A stretch of DNA of 53,422 nt, from positions 1-53,422 of the forward strand of contig JADZFF010000054.1 in NCBI GenBank assembly GCA_020850015.1, read 5' to 3'. Positions 9,571 to 50,696 of this stretch are shown here, piece by piece; positions within the stretch are counted from its first letter, which is position 1; every line of letters begins with the position of its first letter. A model generated the notes under the pieces. It saw only the letters and a list, made by a program, of their open reading frames with translations, was not told the DNA's origin and ran no database searches. Both the position numbers and the translations under genes were made by a program. This stretch comes from Bdellovibrionales bacterium (GTDB lineage Bacteria; Bdellovibrionota; UBA1018; JADZFF01).

Positions 9571-9646
9571 GGGCCTATAGCTCAGTTGGTAGAGCGCTTC
9601 AATGGCATTGAAGAGGTCAGCGGTTCGAATCCGCTTAGGTCCACCA
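9571..9646 (+). tRNA. tRNA-Ala (GGC anticodon)
   Basis: The 76-base sequence folds into a full cloverleaf. The acceptor stem GGGCCTA pairs with TAGGTCC and contains the G3:U70 wobble that is the main alanine identity element. The D arm (GCTCAGTTGGTAGAGC), the anticodon stem CTTCA/TGAAG with loop ATGGCAT (anticodon GGC) and the T arm AGCGG TTCGAAT CCGCT are all regular. CCA is encoded at the 3' end. No integrase or duplicated tRNA end is nearby, so it does not seem to serve as an attachment site here. Confidence 0.97.
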
Positions 9647-42683: not shown

Positions 42684-43700
42684 TCAGAGCTCTTCGGCTG
42701 AGGCTTCCACCTCGGCTTCGGCGTTTTTGCCCTCGGCCATGCGCTCCTTGCGGAGGCGCTTCAGGAGCTTCTTCATGTCGGCGGTGAGATTCTGGTCGAA
42801 GGTGGTCATCACCGGTGCGCCGAGCGTTCCAGCCAGCAGGGCGTCGAGCCTGCGCACACGCGAGAACGAGTCGGCGGCGCTCATGGCCGCGCTCTGACGT
42901 TCGCGCTCCGTGCAGGAGATGCAGCGGCGAGCCACCTCCGACTGGAACACGCCTTCCACGGCGTAAGAGCCCCAGGCGTGGTCGTCGCAGGCGGCGTAGC
43001 CGGCGAAGGCGTGGCCGGCCGGGCAGATCCCGTGCAGGTTTCCGCAGAAGCCGACCGCGGCAGTGTTTCCGTTGATGAGCTGTTGGAACTCGGCGTTCGA
43101 CGGGCGGCGCGAGCAATCCGAGTGGCGGGCCTCATGGATCAGAGTGCCGATGCGGGTCGGGGTGTCGCGGTCGGGCGAGTAGCCGGCGCCGAGCTGAATG
43201 ATGCCGATGCGCGGTCCCTGGACGGGGATCTTGGAGTTGCCGATCTGGAACCCGACGCGCGGGCGAGGAAGGTTGTTCTGGATCTGGTCGATCGCGGCGA
43301 CGAAGTAGACCACCGTGCCCACATTCTGGGCCATCGTCACGACTTCACGCTCCTCGCCGAAGAAACCCGACGACAGGAGCTTCAGTCGTGAATCGAACTT
43401 CACGCGCTCTGAGAGAAGGTAGTTCACGCGGGCATCGAGGAATCTCAGGGCGTGCGCGCCCGAGTTGCCGCCGAACACCGGGGCGAACCAGCGGCCCGGG
43501 GTGCCGCCGAGCTCGTAGCGCATCAGGCGCAGCACGTCCTGGCGAAGAAGGCTCTTTTCGGCCCTGTTCAGCGAGGGGTCGAGCTTCATGGTGACGGCCT
43601 CGTTGAGCTCCTCCACCTTGCGGCAGCCTCCGAGCAGGAACGAGGACGCAAGCGTCAGGGCAAAAAGAGTCTGGAGCGTGGTGCGGCGATTCAGTGTCAC
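42684..43700 (-). CDS. Lipoprotein with HExxH metalloprotease-like motif
   Basis: The 338-residue lipoprotein has lipobox LLGGC (Cys26). A short zincin-like motif HEARH (His189, Glu190, His193) occurs in RIGTLIHEARHSDCSRR, so it may bind zinc and cleave peptide bonds; no full peptidase family was identified. Cys-rich stretches follow (CGNLHGICPAGHAFAGYAAC, ARRCISCTERE). The C-terminus is Lys/Arg- and Glu-rich. The GTG start has AAAGGGGAT 6-8 bases upstream. It is divergent from the GcvH-like gene. Confidence 0.7.
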   Translation of the reverse strand: MTLNRRTTLQTLFALTLASSFLLGGCRKVEELNEAVTMKLDPSLNRAEKSLLRQDVLRLMRYELGGTPGRWFAPVFGGNSGAHALRFLDARVNYLLSERVKFDSRLKLLSSGFFGEEREVVTMAQNVGTVVYFVAAIDQIQNNLPRPRVGFQIGNSKIPVQGPRIGIIQLGAGYSPDRDTPTRIGTLIHEARHSDCSRRPSNAEFQQLINGNTAAVGFCGNLHGICPAGHAFAGYAACDDHAWGSYAVEGVFQSEVARRCISCTERERQSAAMSAADSFSRVRRLDALLAGTLGAPVMTTFDQNLTADMKKLLKRLRKERMAEGKNAEAEVEASAEEL

Positions 43701-43768: not shown

Positions 43769-43785
43769 CGCATCACGGTGATGCG
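43769..43785. promoter_or_regulatory. 17-base palindrome in a divergent promoter region
   Basis: CGCATCAC (43769-43776) and GTGATGCG (43778-43785) are perfect inverted arms around one base, an operator-like dyad between the divergent lipoprotein (start 43700) and GcvH-like (start 43851) genes. TTGACG at 43814-43819 with ATAAGG/CATAAG 16-17 bases on could be a promoter for the latter. Confidence 0.45.
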
Positions 43786-43850: not shown

Positions 43851-44219
43851 ATGTCGAACCCCGCGGAACACTCAGGCGAGACGGATCAGGGCCGGATTTG
43901 GTGGCACTGGGCGGGCGGAACGCTCACGCTCGGCATGACGGGAGCGGCGATCTCCGAGCTGGGCGAACCCGAGGAGGTTTCGCTGCCGGAGGAAGGCGAG
44001 TCGCTCGAGAGCGGTGATATCCTGTTCTCGTGCGGAGGTTCTACGGGAAGCTACGAATGGGCCTGTCCGGTGGAGGGCACGGTCAGTGCCGTGAACGCCG
44101 CCGTGCTCGACGATCCCCTGGTTCTGGCCGAGGATCCCTTGGAGTCCTGGCTCGTGCGGATCGAGGTGGTCGATGAGTCCCAAATCGCCCCGCTCCGGTC
44201 CGGGAAAAAAGCAGGCTAG
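43851..44219 (+). CDS. GcvH-like protein lacking the lipoyl lysine
   Basis: The 122-residue protein follows the glycine cleavage H-protein fold: LTLGMTGAAISELGEPEEV, SLESGDILFS, CPVEGTVSAVNAAVLDDP and EDPLESWLVRIE. In true H proteins the segment before the last strand reads E-S-V-K-A and carries the lipoylated Lys. Here it is GGSTGSYEWACPV with no Lys, so it cannot be lipoylated. It is probably a repurposed H-like domain, perhaps regulatory. It overlaps the next, kinase-like gene by 47 bases. AAGG lies 8 bases before the ATG. Confidence 0.8.
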   Translation: MSNPAEHSGETDQGRIWWHWAGGTLTLGMTGAAISELGEPEEVSLPEEGESLESGDILFSCGGSTGSYEWACPVEGTVSAVNAAVLDDPLVLAEDPLESWLVRIEVVDESQIAPLRSGKKAG

Positions 44220-45423
44220 GAAACCCTCAGCCGCGGAGAGCGCGCCGTTTGGGGAAGGGCTCGCCGTCGGCCACCGCGCCGGGAACCGCCTCTCCCCCCA
44301 TGACGAGGAACTGTTCCGCGCCTTCCAGTCGAACCTGCTCTCGCTGATCTCCCATGAGCTTCGCACGCCGCTCATGGGGATCCTGAACGCCCTTTCTCTC
44401 CTTCAAGATGCGGCGGATCCGGGGCACGCCGGAGAGCTTCCGTTGCCCGAACTGGTGTCGATGGCGCGAAACAACGCGCAGAAGCTTCACCACGCGCTGT
44501 CCTCGCTTCTTGATCTCGCTGCGATCGAGTCGGGCGCCTTCAGGGCGCGGCTGAAGGAGGTTGATTTCGCGCGCTTGGCGGTCCTCAGGATCGGAGCCCT
44601 GGAGCCGCGCCTGAACGATCGCCGGCTGACCTTCACGGTCGACGCCGTCTCAGCGAAGGAGGCCCAGGCCTCGCCGCTTCTGGGTGATCCCCAAAAGCTG
44701 TCGCGGGCCGTGGATCTCGCGCTCGAGATCCTTCTGGAAAGGGCAGAGCCGGGGTCGAAGGTGCATTTCGAGGCCGACGCCTCCCACCTCAACGTGAGCT
44801 TCACGCTCCCGCCCTCAGCAGAAGAGGAGTGGGAGACGGATTGGACCCAGGCGCGCGCGGGGTTCCAGGGCGGCGTGGTTTCGCCGGTGTCGGCTTTCGC
44901 CGGGACGGTGAGAAGCGAGCGCGACTTCCTGACTCGGACCCGGGAAGGTCTGGGAAGCGAATTCCTCCTGGTGATGGAGATCCTGCGGCTCCATGGCGGC
45001 GAATTCAAGGCGGCGCGCTCCGGGACGCAGGTGCGGCTGGAGCTTCGCTTGCCGCGGCTCGAGAGCGAGGAAGGCGTGAAGGCCGTGCTTCAGTCCCGTG
45101 CCTACGAGAGCTCTCATGGGCTCGCGAGCCTCGCTGTGGCGCTGGTCGCGGTTCCCCGCGGGGAGGAGGCCAGCGCCTTTCAAGGGCGGCTCCGAAGGGC
45201 GCTGTTCCGTGCCTCCGACGCGGTTTACGCCCTGGAGGGCGCGGGGAAGGTGGCCCTGGTGCTCGACGACTGCAAGAGCCAGGATTCACCTCGGCTCTTG
45301 GAGCGCATTTCCGAGATTCTGGGGCACTCCCTGGAGGCGGGTGTGGCGCACTGTCCGGAAGAAGGCACCGACCCTGAGGTACTGCTGCGGCTCGCCAATT
45401 CCAGACTCAAAAAGTCCAATTAA
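44173..45423 (+). CDS. Degenerate histidine kinase with GGDEF-like end
   Basis: The 416-residue protein has a HisKA dimerisation/phosphotransfer helix: LLSLISHELRTPLMGILNAL (His61). The ATPase half that follows (about 130-300) lacks clear N, G1 and G2 boxes, so ATP binding is doubtful. The C-terminus (about 330-410: RLRRALFRASDAVYALEGAG, KVALVLDDCK) is like a GGDEF domain without the GGDEF signature. No membrane helix is present. It starts inside the GcvH-like gene with GAGGTGG just upstream of ATG 44173, so the two are probably co-translated and may act together. Confidence 0.72.
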   Translation: MSPKSPRSGPGKKQARKPSAAESAPFGEGLAVGHRAGNRLSPHDEELFRAFQSNLLSLISHELRTPLMGILNALSLLQDAADPGHAGELPLPELVSMARNNAQKLHHALSSLLDLAAIESGAFRARLKEVDFARLAVLRIGALEPRLNDRRLTFTVDAVSAKEAQASPLLGDPQKLSRAVDLALEILLERAEPGSKVHFEADASHLNVSFTLPPSAEEEWETDWTQARAGFQGGVVSPVSAFAGTVRSERDFLTRTREGLGSEFLLVMEILRLHGGEFKAARSGTQVRLELRLPRLESEEGVKAVLQSRAYESSHGLASLAVALVAVPRGEEASAFQGRLRRALFRASDAVYALEGAGKVALVLDDCKSQDSPRLLERISEILGHSLEAGVAHCPEEGTDPEVLLRLANSRLKKSN

Positions 45424-45495: not shown

Positions 45496-46997
45496 ATGAG
45501 CGATCCGACGCCAGAAACCACGGTCCGGCCTCAGGCTAACCGAGGGCGATTCTTTATCAAAACCTTCGGCTGCCAGATGAATGTGGCGGACACCGAGCGC
45601 ATGTGCTCGCTCCTCCGCGACAGCGGCATGGAAGCGGCTGAGGCCGTGGAGCAGGCCGATCTCATCCTCATCAACGGCTGCTCCGTCCGCGACAAGGCCG
45701 TGCACAAGGCCGTGTCGACCCTGGGCACCTATCAGGACTTCGTAACCGCGGGTCGCAAGCCCCTCCTGGGCCTGGGCGGCTGCGTGGGTCAGATGGAGAA
45801 GGGCACGATCTTCAGGCGGGCCCCTTACCTCGACTTCGTCTTCGGCCCGGACGCTATCGACCAGATCCCCGAGATCGTGAGCCGTGTGCAGCAGGGCGAG
45901 CGCCACTCCGTCTACGCCGACTTCGACCGCCGCGACGACTACTCCACCGAGACGCGCGCGCTTCCGGGCCAGGCCCAGGCCTTCGTGAACATCATGAAGG
46001 GCTGCGACAAGTACTGCACCTACTGCATCGTGCCGTTCACGCGGGGCCGCGAGAAATCGCGCACGATCTCCGAGGTGCTCGACGACCTGGCGAAGCTCGT
46101 GGGGCAGGGCGTGCGCGAGGTGACGCTGCTCGGCCAGAACGTGAACTCCTTTGGCAAAGGGAATCCCAACAAGCTGGGGCTGGAGCCCCGCGCGCTCGTC
46201 GGCCCCATCGGCCGCGTGGGCCCCGAGGAGGGCGAAGAGACCTTCCCGATGCTCCTGCGCGCGATGGACGCCGATCCCAGGCTAGCGGAGCTCAAACGCA
46301 TCCGTTTCACATCGAGTCACCCGCTCGATTTCAGTGATCAGCTCCTGGAGTGTTACGCGCCCCCATCCGAGGGCGGCGTCGCCCGCCTCGCCCCCCACCT
46401 CCATCTGCCCGTACAGAGCGGCTCCGACCGTGTGCTCTCGAAGATGGGCCGCAAGCACAAGATCGAGTCCTATATCGCGCAGATGGACCGCCTGAAGGCG
46501 CTCAATCCGGACGTGGGCCTGGGCACTGATCTGATCGTGGGGTTCCCCACGGAGACGGAAGAAGAGTTCGAGGAGACGCTGAAGCTCCTCGATCGCGTCC
46601 AGTACGACACTGTGTTCGCCTTCGCCTACTCGCCGCGCCCCGGAACTCGCGCCGCGAAGCTGCCGGACGACGTGCCGGACGAGGTCAAGAACCGCCGCTT
46701 GAATCAGCTTCTGGCCCACCAGAAGCTGATTTCCGAGAGACGCTACGCCGAGCGCGTGGGCCGCAGGTACGAGGTGCTCGTGGAAGGTTCTGCGAAGAAC
46801 GATCTGATGCTTCGCGAGGGCGAGAGTCGCGGCCTCCGCGTGTGGACCGGCCGCACTGGATGCAACCGCGTGGTGAATTTCCGCGCGGGCGCTCCGCGCT
46901 CGCTGACGGGCAGATTCCTCGAGGTCGAGATCACGGATTCCTCTCCGATCGCGCTCACCGGCAACCTGCTGAGTGACGTTTCCGAGGGATCGAGCGC

Positions 46998-47001
<4 letters not shown>
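45496..47001 (+). CDS. miaB: tRNA methylthiotransferase MiaB
   Basis: MiaB adds a methylthio group to i6A37 of tRNAs. The N-terminal UPF0004 domain holds three cluster Cys: FGCQMN (Cys26), NGCSVR (Cys62), GGCVGQ (Cys96). The radical-SAM motif is CDKYCTYC (Cys170, 174, 177). LLGQNVNSFG and the C-terminal TRAM-like part are present. At 501 residues it is longer than usual; part of the excess is a stretch around 216-240 (LEPRALVGPIGRVGPEEG). No Shine-Dalgarno is clear. Its TGA overlaps the GTG start of the carbonic anhydrase gene. Confidence 0.95.
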
Positions 47002-49060
<2,059 letters not shown>

Positions 49061-49094
49061 CGTACGAAGCAGCCCAGAGGAGGGCCCAAGAGCC

Positions 49095-50696
49095 GTGACC
49101 GCCCGCAAGCATTCCACCGTGGTGATCCTGGATTACGGCTCGCAGTACACGCAGCTCATCGCGCGGCGGGTGCGGGAGCTCGGGATCTATTCGCGGGTGC
49201 TCTCCGGAGATGCGTCACTCGCGCGGATTCAGGAACTTGATCCAAAGGCCGTGATTCTCTCGGGCGGGCCGAGCTCGGTCTACGACGCTGGCGCGCCGAC
49301 TCTGCCGGCGGGATTCCTGGAGGAGCAGAGGCGCACGAAGCTCCCCACGCTCGGCGTCTGTTACGGCATGCAGCTTCTGGTGCGGGATCTCGGCGGCAAG
49401 GTCGACCGCGCCGAGAAGCGCGAGTACGGCAAGATGGACGTGCACCCGGAGTCGGGCTCGCGGCTCTTCAGCGGACGGCCGAAGTTCTCGGCCTGGATGA
49501 GCCACGGGGATGAAAGCGCCGAGCTCCCCAAGGGCTTCCGCTTGGCCGCGAAAAGCGCCGCCGGTGCCGTGGCCGCTGCGGAGGCCCCGGAGCTCGGGCT
49601 TTACGGCCTGCAGTTCCACCCCGAGGTCACGCACACCGAGCGTGGCATGGAGCTCCTTCGCGCGTTTCTGCTCGACATCGCGGGCATCCGCCCCGACTGG
49701 ACCATGGGCTCCGTGATCGAGGAGCAGGTGGAGCGCATCCGCGACCTCGTGCCCCCGGGCGAGCACGCGCTTTGCGCGCTTTCGGGCGGCGTGGATTCGG
49801 CCGTGGCGGCCGTGCTCGTGCACAAGGCGCTGGGCGACCGCCTCCACTGCGTGTTCGTGGATCACGGCCTGCTGCGCTTCCAGGAGCGCGAACGCGTGAA
49901 CACGATGTTCCGCGAGAAGCTGCATCTTCCGGTGGAAACGGTGGACGCCTCCGCGCGGGTCCTGGGCAAGCTGGCCGGCGTGGCCGACCCCGAGAAGAAA
50001 CGGAAGATCATCGGCTCCGAGTTCATCTCCGTGTTCGACGAGGCGGCAGATCGCATCGGGAAGAAGATGGGCAAGACTCCGCGCTTCCTGGTGCAGGGCA
50101 CGCTCTATCCGGATGTCATCGAGTCGAGCCCGGCCCCCTCTGATGGCCCGGCGATCCCGGGCAAGAAGCACTCCCATACGATCAAGTCCCACCACAACGT
50201 GGGGGGCCTGCCGAAGGACCTCAAGTTCACGCTCATCGAGCCGCTCCGCGATCTCTTCAAGGACGAGGTGAGGCGCATGGGCAAGGAGCTCGGTGTGCCC
50301 GAGGAGTTCCTGGCCCGCCACCCGTTCCCGGGCCCTGGGCTCGCCGTGCGTATCATCGGCGACGTCACGCCCGAGGCCATCGATATCCTTCAGCGAGTGG
50401 ACGAGGTGTTCATTCAGGGGATCAGGGAGGCCGGGCTCTACTCCGAGATCTGGCAGGCCTTCGCGGTGTTCCTGCCCATTCGGTCCGTGGGCGTCCAGGG
50501 CGACGGTCGCACGCACGACCACGTCGTGGCTCTCCGGGCCGTAACCTCCACCGACGGCATGACGGCCGACTGGTACCGATTCCCCCACGACGTCCTGGCA
50601 CGTATCTCTACCCGGATCTGCAACGAGGTGAGGGGCGTGAACCGCGTGGTTTACGACGTCAGCTCCAAACCCCCCGCCACCATCGAGTGGGAATAG
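49095..50696 (+). CDS. guaA: GMP synthase (glutamine-hydrolysing) GuaA
   Basis: GuaA converts XMP to GMP with glutamine and ATP. The 533-residue protein has the class I amidotransferase domain with VILDYGSQYTQLIARRVREL, catalytic Cys89 in GVCYGMQ, and FHPEVTHTE. The ATP-pyrophosphatase domain follows with LSGGVDSAVAAVL, and the dimerisation part ends in NRVVYDVSSKPPATIEWE. Start is a GTG with GAGGAGGG upstream. Confidence 0.98.
   Translation: MTARKHSTVVILDYGSQYTQLIARRVRELGIYSRVLSGDASLARIQELDPKAVILSGGPSSVYDAGAPTLPAGFLEEQRRTKLPTLGVCYGMQLLVRDLGGKVDRAEKREYGKMDVHPESGSRLFSGRPKFSAWMSHGDESAELPKGFRLAAKSAAGAVAAAEAPELGLYGLQFHPEVTHTERGMELLRAFLLDIAGIRPDWTMGSVIEEQVERIRDLVPPGEHALCALSGGVDSAVAAVLVHKALGDRLHCVFVDHGLLRFQERERVNTMFREKLHLPVETVDASARVLGKLAGVADPEKKRKIIGSEFISVFDEAADRIGKKMGKTPRFLVQGTLYPDVIESSPAPSDGPAIPGKKHSHTIKSHHNVGGLPKDLKFTLIEPLRDLFKDEVRRMGKELGVPEEFLARHPFPGPGLAVRIIGDVTPEAIDILQRVDEVFIQGIREAGLYSEIWQAFAVFLPIRSVGVQGDGRTHDHVVALRAVTSTDGMTADWYRFPHDVLARISTRICNEVRGVNRVVYDVSSKPPATIEWE

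Follow-up and report, generated by a model that had tools for sequence, protein, structure and literature searches.

The N-box asparagine of histidine kinases binds Mg-ATP, and DivL carries a tyrosine at the position of the phospho-acceptor histidine. Eukaryotic pyruvate dehydrogenase kinase (PDK) binds the lipoyl domain L2, with the lipoyl-lysine itself making contact, and the RxxD motif of GGDEF domains is the c-di-GMP inhibitory site (I-site). According to an excerpt of PMC5898713, the phosphotransferases Spo0B, ChpT and PhyT are tied to histidine kinase degeneration, and an excerpt of PMC9491836 presents ChrS of Corynebacterium as a kinase with a broken ATPase (CA) domain that acts with a paralogue. 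Degenerate GGDEF proteins that retain c-di-GMP binding include PopA, PelD and CdgA of Bdellovibrio (excerpt of PMC3974145), and the GcvH-like LbpA proteins retain the lysine (excerpt of PMC6067878). In the open-access literature we searched, nothing joined a GcvH-like protein with a histidine kinase and nothing dealt with a Bdellovibrio pseudokinase; for Bdellovibrio gcvH, nothing was on topic as judged by title. Here we describe a locus in a window of 53,422 nucleotides (the whole stretch of Bdellovibrionales DNA that was analysed) in which a GcvH paralogue without the lipoyl lysine overlaps a pseudokinase derived from a histidine kinase. The two genes are a real, conserved pair that has probably been repurposed.

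Results

Two overlapping genes and their upstream region

The features of the locus are collected in Table 1. A preliminary description of this DNA had placed the second gene as starting inside the first, and its coordinates proved exact. The second gene has the ATG at 44173 as its sole in-frame ATG, GTG or TTG ahead of the HisKA motif. For the palindrome in the upstream region, the chance expectation in the window is 0.47 at three mismatches, and since no second exact copy occurs in the genome it does not have the status of a demonstrated regulon site. Our search for a sigma-70-like promoter at the pair found none, nor was an RNA family found near it, the one Rfam match being a tRNA at 9571-9643. 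Divergently, on the minus strand (42684-43700), lies the gene for a 338-aa protein with a lipobox-like signal; the best Pfam match of this protein is not significant (E 0.029), and a relative is absent from the 40 neighbourhoods compared.

Table 1. Features of the two-gene locus, in window coordinates
Feature	Coordinates	Strand	Basis or remark
17-bp near-perfect palindrome CGCATCAC-N-GTGATGCG, candidate operator	43769..43785	.	divergent intergenic region upstream of pair
Lys-less GcvH paralogue ('GCVHL'), 122 aa, H-protein fold	43851..44219	+	Pfam GCV_H; model; structure matches
Former lipoyl hairpin, residues 62-70 GGSTGSYEW	44034..44060	+	alignment of 43 class, 8 outside-class and 46 canonical GcvH copies
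Two-frame overlap	44173..44219	+	47 nt; GAGGTGG at 44163-44169 precedes ATG
Histidine kinase-derived pseudokinase (DHp, pseudo-CA, pseudo-GGDEF), 416 aa	44173..45423	+	
HisKA/DHp domain, HELRTP intact, His61 codon 44353-44355	44323..44535	+	HisKA 44 bits
Degenerate ATPase (CA) domain, G2-like EGLGSEF kept	44545..45063	+	residues 125-297 match histidine kinase CA domains
Degenerate GGDEF domain, no GG[D/E]EF	45064..45420	+	structure match; hhalign
RxxD (R346-A-S-D349), putative c-di-GMP I-site, 5 residues before lost GGDEF	45208..45219	+	
miaB, gamma-carbonic anhydrase, guaB and guaA genes, conserved downstream	45496..50696	+	NCBIfam; order shared with relatives

An H-protein fold without the lipoyl lysine

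The product of the first gene matched Pfam GCV_H (PF01597) with 53.1 bits, above the cut-off of 22.2, and scored below the cut-offs of both NCBIfam GcvH models (PRK01202, 54.5 bits against 117; TIGR00527, 50.5 against 115.85). Its predicted structure (mean pLDDT 88.9) matched solved H-proteins with Z scores of 14-18, the highest being 18.0 for 1zko, and the next fold followed at 7.7. Profile alignment placed Thr65 (codon 44043-44045, within CGGSTGSYEWACP) in the lipoyl-lysine column. A lysine concealed by misalignment was ruled out by profile alignment of all copies. The window genome holds exactly two GCV_H matches, and the other copy passes the GcvH models with 164.2 and 143.5 bits.

Lysine was missing from this column in 33 of the 43 paralogue copies of the class, which have N, Q, S, R, L, D, T, H or Y instead. 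Nine of the ten lysine-bearing copies belong to one family, f5, where the residues around it are unlike those of GcvH (EGEKQN, for instance). In f5 (L007, L010, L011, L029 and others) the lysine is present in 9 of 11 copies and the pseudokinase is absent. Given such a lysine in a non-GcvH context, the description 'never lipoylated' should not be extended to the f5 copies. All 46 canonical GcvH copies, the window genome's own included, have the lysine, nearly all within ESxKA; here the label 'canonical' went to the lower-scoring copies before the lysine column was read. Eight Lys-less copies were found outside the class, with aspartate at the column in seven and glutamate in one, and because of these loci we regard the Lys-less paralogue as wider in distribution, and probably older, than the gene pair.

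In a tree of 94 rows, from which rows under 85 aa and a third copy in genome G022 were omitted, canonical GcvH formed one group (support 100/99) separate from the paralogue. The finer structure is unsure because only 110 columns were available, and the window's row forms a long branch. The A2 alignment used 27 of the 30 GcvH-like rows. The third copy in G022 (L221, G022:C16:62800-64600, minus strand) is a 276-aa frame with a hydrophobic N-terminal segment; it has no lysine at the lipoyl column and is another type of Lys-less H-protein.

A kinase core with an intact phospho-acceptor and a degenerate ATP site

The AlphaFold model of the second gene product (mean pLDDT 79.9) contains a DHp hairpin followed by CA-like and GGDEF-like domains; Pfam recognised no sensory domain. 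In the Foldseek and VIA matches DivL came first (Z 20.6), followed by HK853 and, further down, RetS. The VIA list was mostly filled by the histidine kinase core, and the absence of other folds from it is uninformative. SHELxTP is kept in all 28 orthologue rows that cover the HisKA motif, the histidine being invariant. HATPase_c, however, scored just 13.8 bits against a cut-off of 26.4 and covered residues 251-294, which are the G2 region alone. Motif alignment found the N-box asparagine, the F-box and the G1 Asp-x-Gly all absent from the second gene. Measured against the definition of a histidine kinase, the protein has a DHp domain with its phospho-acceptor histidine but, of the N, G1, F and G2 boxes, retains a G2-like loop alone.

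The same holds for close relatives: HATPase_c reached its cut-off in none of the 15 orthologues of set A1, which comprises 15 of the 16 pseudokinases first found (truncated L025 was excluded). The N-box asparagine is kept in 4 of 29 orthologues, all from the outlying families f3 and f7, and the F-box FEPF in families f7 and f8. The outgroup L144 (f7) scores 46.3 bits with HATPase_c, above the cut-off, and is also without the G1 Asp-x-Gly. Since outlying orthologues retain the asparagine and the histidine is present in 28 of 28 rows, the ATPase has decayed with His61 unchanged. Judged from these sequences, loss of the ATP site is graded across families, with the phospho-acceptor box untouched.

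A dead GGDEF domain that retains RxxD

Residues 294-416 of the second gene product matched DgcB (6tts_B) over 120 residues with a Z score of 14.8 and an rmsd of 2.5. PF00990 gave 11.5 bits for the C-terminus, below the cut-off of 23.8, and hhalign of a 15-member profile with the genome's own GGDEF domains gave a probability of 91.5 (E 8.7e-7). EGAGK replaces GG[D/E]EF, and this tip is variable in the orthologues. The domain thus has the fold of a diguanylate cyclase but not its active site. Upstream of the lost motif, R346-x-x-D349 aligns with the RxxD of the genome's own GGDEF domains, RTTD in an active-type one, and is therefore in the homologous position; the arginine is conserved in 24 of 25 orthologues (the exception, G003, has KxxD) and the aspartate in 25 of 25. 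What is new here, on the alignment, is a dead GGDEF domain with a putative RxxD site at the spacing of the c-di-GMP inhibitory site. Because roughly 44-57% of all GGDEF domains have RxxD, according to an excerpt of PMC3974145, the motif alone is modest evidence, and its arginine and aspartate may be structural rather than ligand-binding. Signalling by c-di-GMP is plausible in this organism since its genome has 5 GGDEF and 10 PilZ matches.

The second gene descends from a protein that combined a histidine kinase with a GGDEF domain; its ATP-binding site and its cyclase motif are gone, and the phospho-acceptor histidine, with Glu at +1 and Thr at +4, remains. These results agree with the preliminary description, which had seen in the first gene an H-protein fold with the lipoyl-lysine segment replaced and in the second a HisKA helix with His61, no recognisable ATP-binding boxes and a GGDEF-like end without GGDEF. 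The folds it proposed are matched by solved structures, Thr65 and EGAGK stand where the motifs would be, and of the ATPase boxes just a G2-like loop is left. It had also named two findings that would overturn it; re-alignment brought no lysine to light in the first gene, and the HMM search recovered an ATPase in 0 of the 15 A1 members.

Adjacency, neighbourhoods and selection

An orthologue of the first gene was found in 43 of the 58 class genomes and of the second in 29. Both genes occur in 23 genomes, the paralogue alone in 20, the pseudokinase alone in 6 and neither in 9; the table was compiled by hand, and two of the pseudokinase-alone genomes (G043 and G048) concern a contig end or apparently rearranged contigs. 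Wherever both genes are present they are adjacent on one strand (23 of 23), and in most cases the possible starts overlap or lie close together. This adjacency is far beyond chance, and we consider the linkage strong. Since many genomes hold one gene alone and joint presence across the 58 genomes is not significant (Fisher p 0.55), the two are nevertheless not obligate partners. An N-terminal LAVGHxP motif was considered as a docking site for the H-protein and dropped, as it also occurs in pseudokinases without the paralogue (G005, G041).

In many class genomes the paralogue lies upstream of miaB, a gamma-class carbonic anhydrase gene, guaB and guaA, and in family f5 it has a different neighbourhood. 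In the outgroup operon of the pair (L144 and L145, family f7), a polyketide-cyclase-type (START-like) protein and the fructose-1,6-bisphosphatase gene glpX lie upstream. In the Bdellovibrio-like family f13 the Lys-less GcvH directly follows glnA in five of six loci (L166, L168, L181, L183 and L185), a metabolic context unlike that of the pair, and glnB precedes glnA in four of these. A phylum sample of 290 genomes, in which up to six candidates per genome were scored, yielded no pseudokinase at E 1e-22 in the 232 genomes outside the class. A search of other genome contigs likewise gave no recognisable relative of the pair among the 80 HisKA-type loci listed (22-41% identity).

Both genes are under purifying constraint. 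For the GcvH-like genes dN/dS was 0.033-0.061 in six pairs, ratios that are rough because dS was above 1.2, and so saturated, in five of them. For the pseudokinase it was 0.28 in one pair (G017/G034; 0.19, 0.31 and 0.28 for its three domains) and 0.03 in another (G041/G042), in which no paralogue adjoins. Recent decay is ruled out by these values. The first gene is an old GcvH paralogue without the lipoyl lysine whose fold is under strong selection, and because the lysine was lost while the fold stays selected it is no ordinary carrier of glycine cleavage.

The preliminary description had called the two genes worn-down modules in a coupled operon and a repurposed regulatory pair. Coupling is supported by the overlap and by the conserved adjacency in all 23 two-gene genomes. 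'Worn-down' does not fit genes maintained in 43 and 29 of 58 genomes at dN/dS of 0.03-0.06 (six pairs) and 0.03 and 0.28 (two pairs); since selection retains both across the class, they look repurposed rather than decaying. Repurposing remains the best general idea, but a strict pair does not, with 20 of 43 paralogues and 6 of 29 pseudokinases unpaired.

Discussion

The reading we favour, at a probability of roughly 0.45, is that the product of the second gene, derived from a kinase, now works as a histidine phosphotransferase or phosphatase, which c-di-GMP may gate and for which the Lys-less H-protein may be a partner. The pseudokinase would not autophosphorylate. Instead, by analogy with Spo0B, ChpT and PhyT, its DHp dimer would use His61 to take phosphoryl groups from the receiver domains of other two-component proteins, or to strip them off. 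More tentatively, c-di-GMP bound at the RxxD of the dead GGDEF domain might gate this activity, and the H-protein, made by coupled translation, might bind to the pseudokinase in a regulatory or scaffolding role. We favour this reading because SHELxTP is kept in 28 of 28 rows as against 4 of 29 for the N-box asparagine, because L144 still scores 46.3 bits with HATPase_c, and because the nearest folds are DivL, HK853 and RetS. Selection in all three domains, the homologous position of RxxD in a genome that has 5 GGDEF and 10 PilZ matches, adjacency in 23 of 23 genomes, the presence of a separate canonical GcvH and the precedent of phosphotransferases derived from histidine kinases (PMC5898713) also favour the reading as a whole. 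Against it stand the separate occurrence of the two genes in many genomes, the frequency of RxxD among GGDEF domains, the KxxD of G003 and the lysine in most f5 copies. Dimer structure could also be the sole reason why His61 is kept, as it would be in a pure scaffold.

Such a scaffold, forming complexes with an active kinase in the manner of RetS-GacS or DivL-CckA, with His61 never phosphorylated, would agree with DivL and RetS being among the closest solved folds and with continued selection on the degenerate CA and GGDEF domains. We consider it rather unlikely, since HELxTP in 28 of 28 rows exceeds what a scaffold needs and DivL itself has Tyr instead of His. Somewhat more credible, if still doubtful, is that these are two independent housekeeping genes in an operon with miaB-guaBA, the paralogue having its role in another process, for instance by regulating the glycine cleavage enzymes, or nitrogen or purine metabolism, or by serving as a decoy. 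The paralogue does occur without the pseudokinase in 20 of 43 cases and the reverse in 6 of 29, and it follows glnA in five of six Bdellovibrio-like loci but precedes miaB-guaBA here; what speaks against independence is that all 23 genomes with both genes keep them side by side, their possible starts usually overlapping or close together. An active but atypical histidine kinase with an unrecognised ATP site could draw on the retained Bergerat-like fold and G2-like loop, yet with the N-box asparagine and G1 aspartate missing and the F-box deleted we think this very improbable. Finally, the loss of catalytic motifs from both genes and the broken frames in an incomplete assembly of a relative (G051) might suggest decaying pseudogenes, a proposal refuted by dN/dS well below 1 (0.03-0.06 for the paralogue; 0.03 and 0.28 for the pseudokinase) and by frames that are open in most class genomes carrying the genes.

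The locus offers a stepwise loss of the ATPase of a histidine kinase that can be traced within one class with the phospho-acceptor intact, and a GcvH paralogue that departed from lipoate chemistry. Should the protein prove to be a relay element that responds to c-di-GMP, it would be an independent case of conversion of a kinase to a phosphotransferase and, as far as the open-access literature we searched shows, the first to connect an H-protein fold with two-component signalling. A bolder version, which we think unlikely, would make it a relay element of new make-up, in which a histidine phosphotransferase or phosphatase with its own c-di-GMP sensor and a lipoyl-free H-protein as regulatory subunit connects c-di-GMP with one-carbon or purine metabolism or with tRNA modification. 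A laboratory-tractable entry point is provided by those Bdellovibrio-like relatives in which a Lys-less GcvH follows glnA.

Compared with described systems, the first gene shares the GcvH fold (PF01597; TIGR00527) over its whole length, but it has no lipoyl lysine in ESxKA, scores below the NCBIfam equivalog cut-off and lies outside the canonical clade (100/99). PDK with lipoyl domain L2 (3crk, 2q8i), which appeared among the structure matches of the first gene product, resembles the pair as a GHKL-fold protein with a lipoyl-type partner, by analogy alone, whereas the contact-making lipoyl-lysine is absent here. With PopA, PelD and CdgA the second gene has in common a lost GGDEF motif and a kept RxxD at the I-site; its domain, for which c-di-GMP binding is putative, instead lies C-terminal to a DHp-CA pseudokinase. 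DivL and RetS are its nearest folds and have a pseudokinase-like role in common with it, but the second gene keeps the histidine, has no recognised sensory domain and ends in a pseudo-GGDEF tail. Like Spo0B, ChpT and PhyT, it has a fold derived from a histidine kinase, with a conserved histidine in the DHp domain and a vestigial CA domain; it differs from them, with phosphotransfer here putative, in its intact HELRTP, its extra pseudo-GGDEF domain and its coupled H-protein paralogue.
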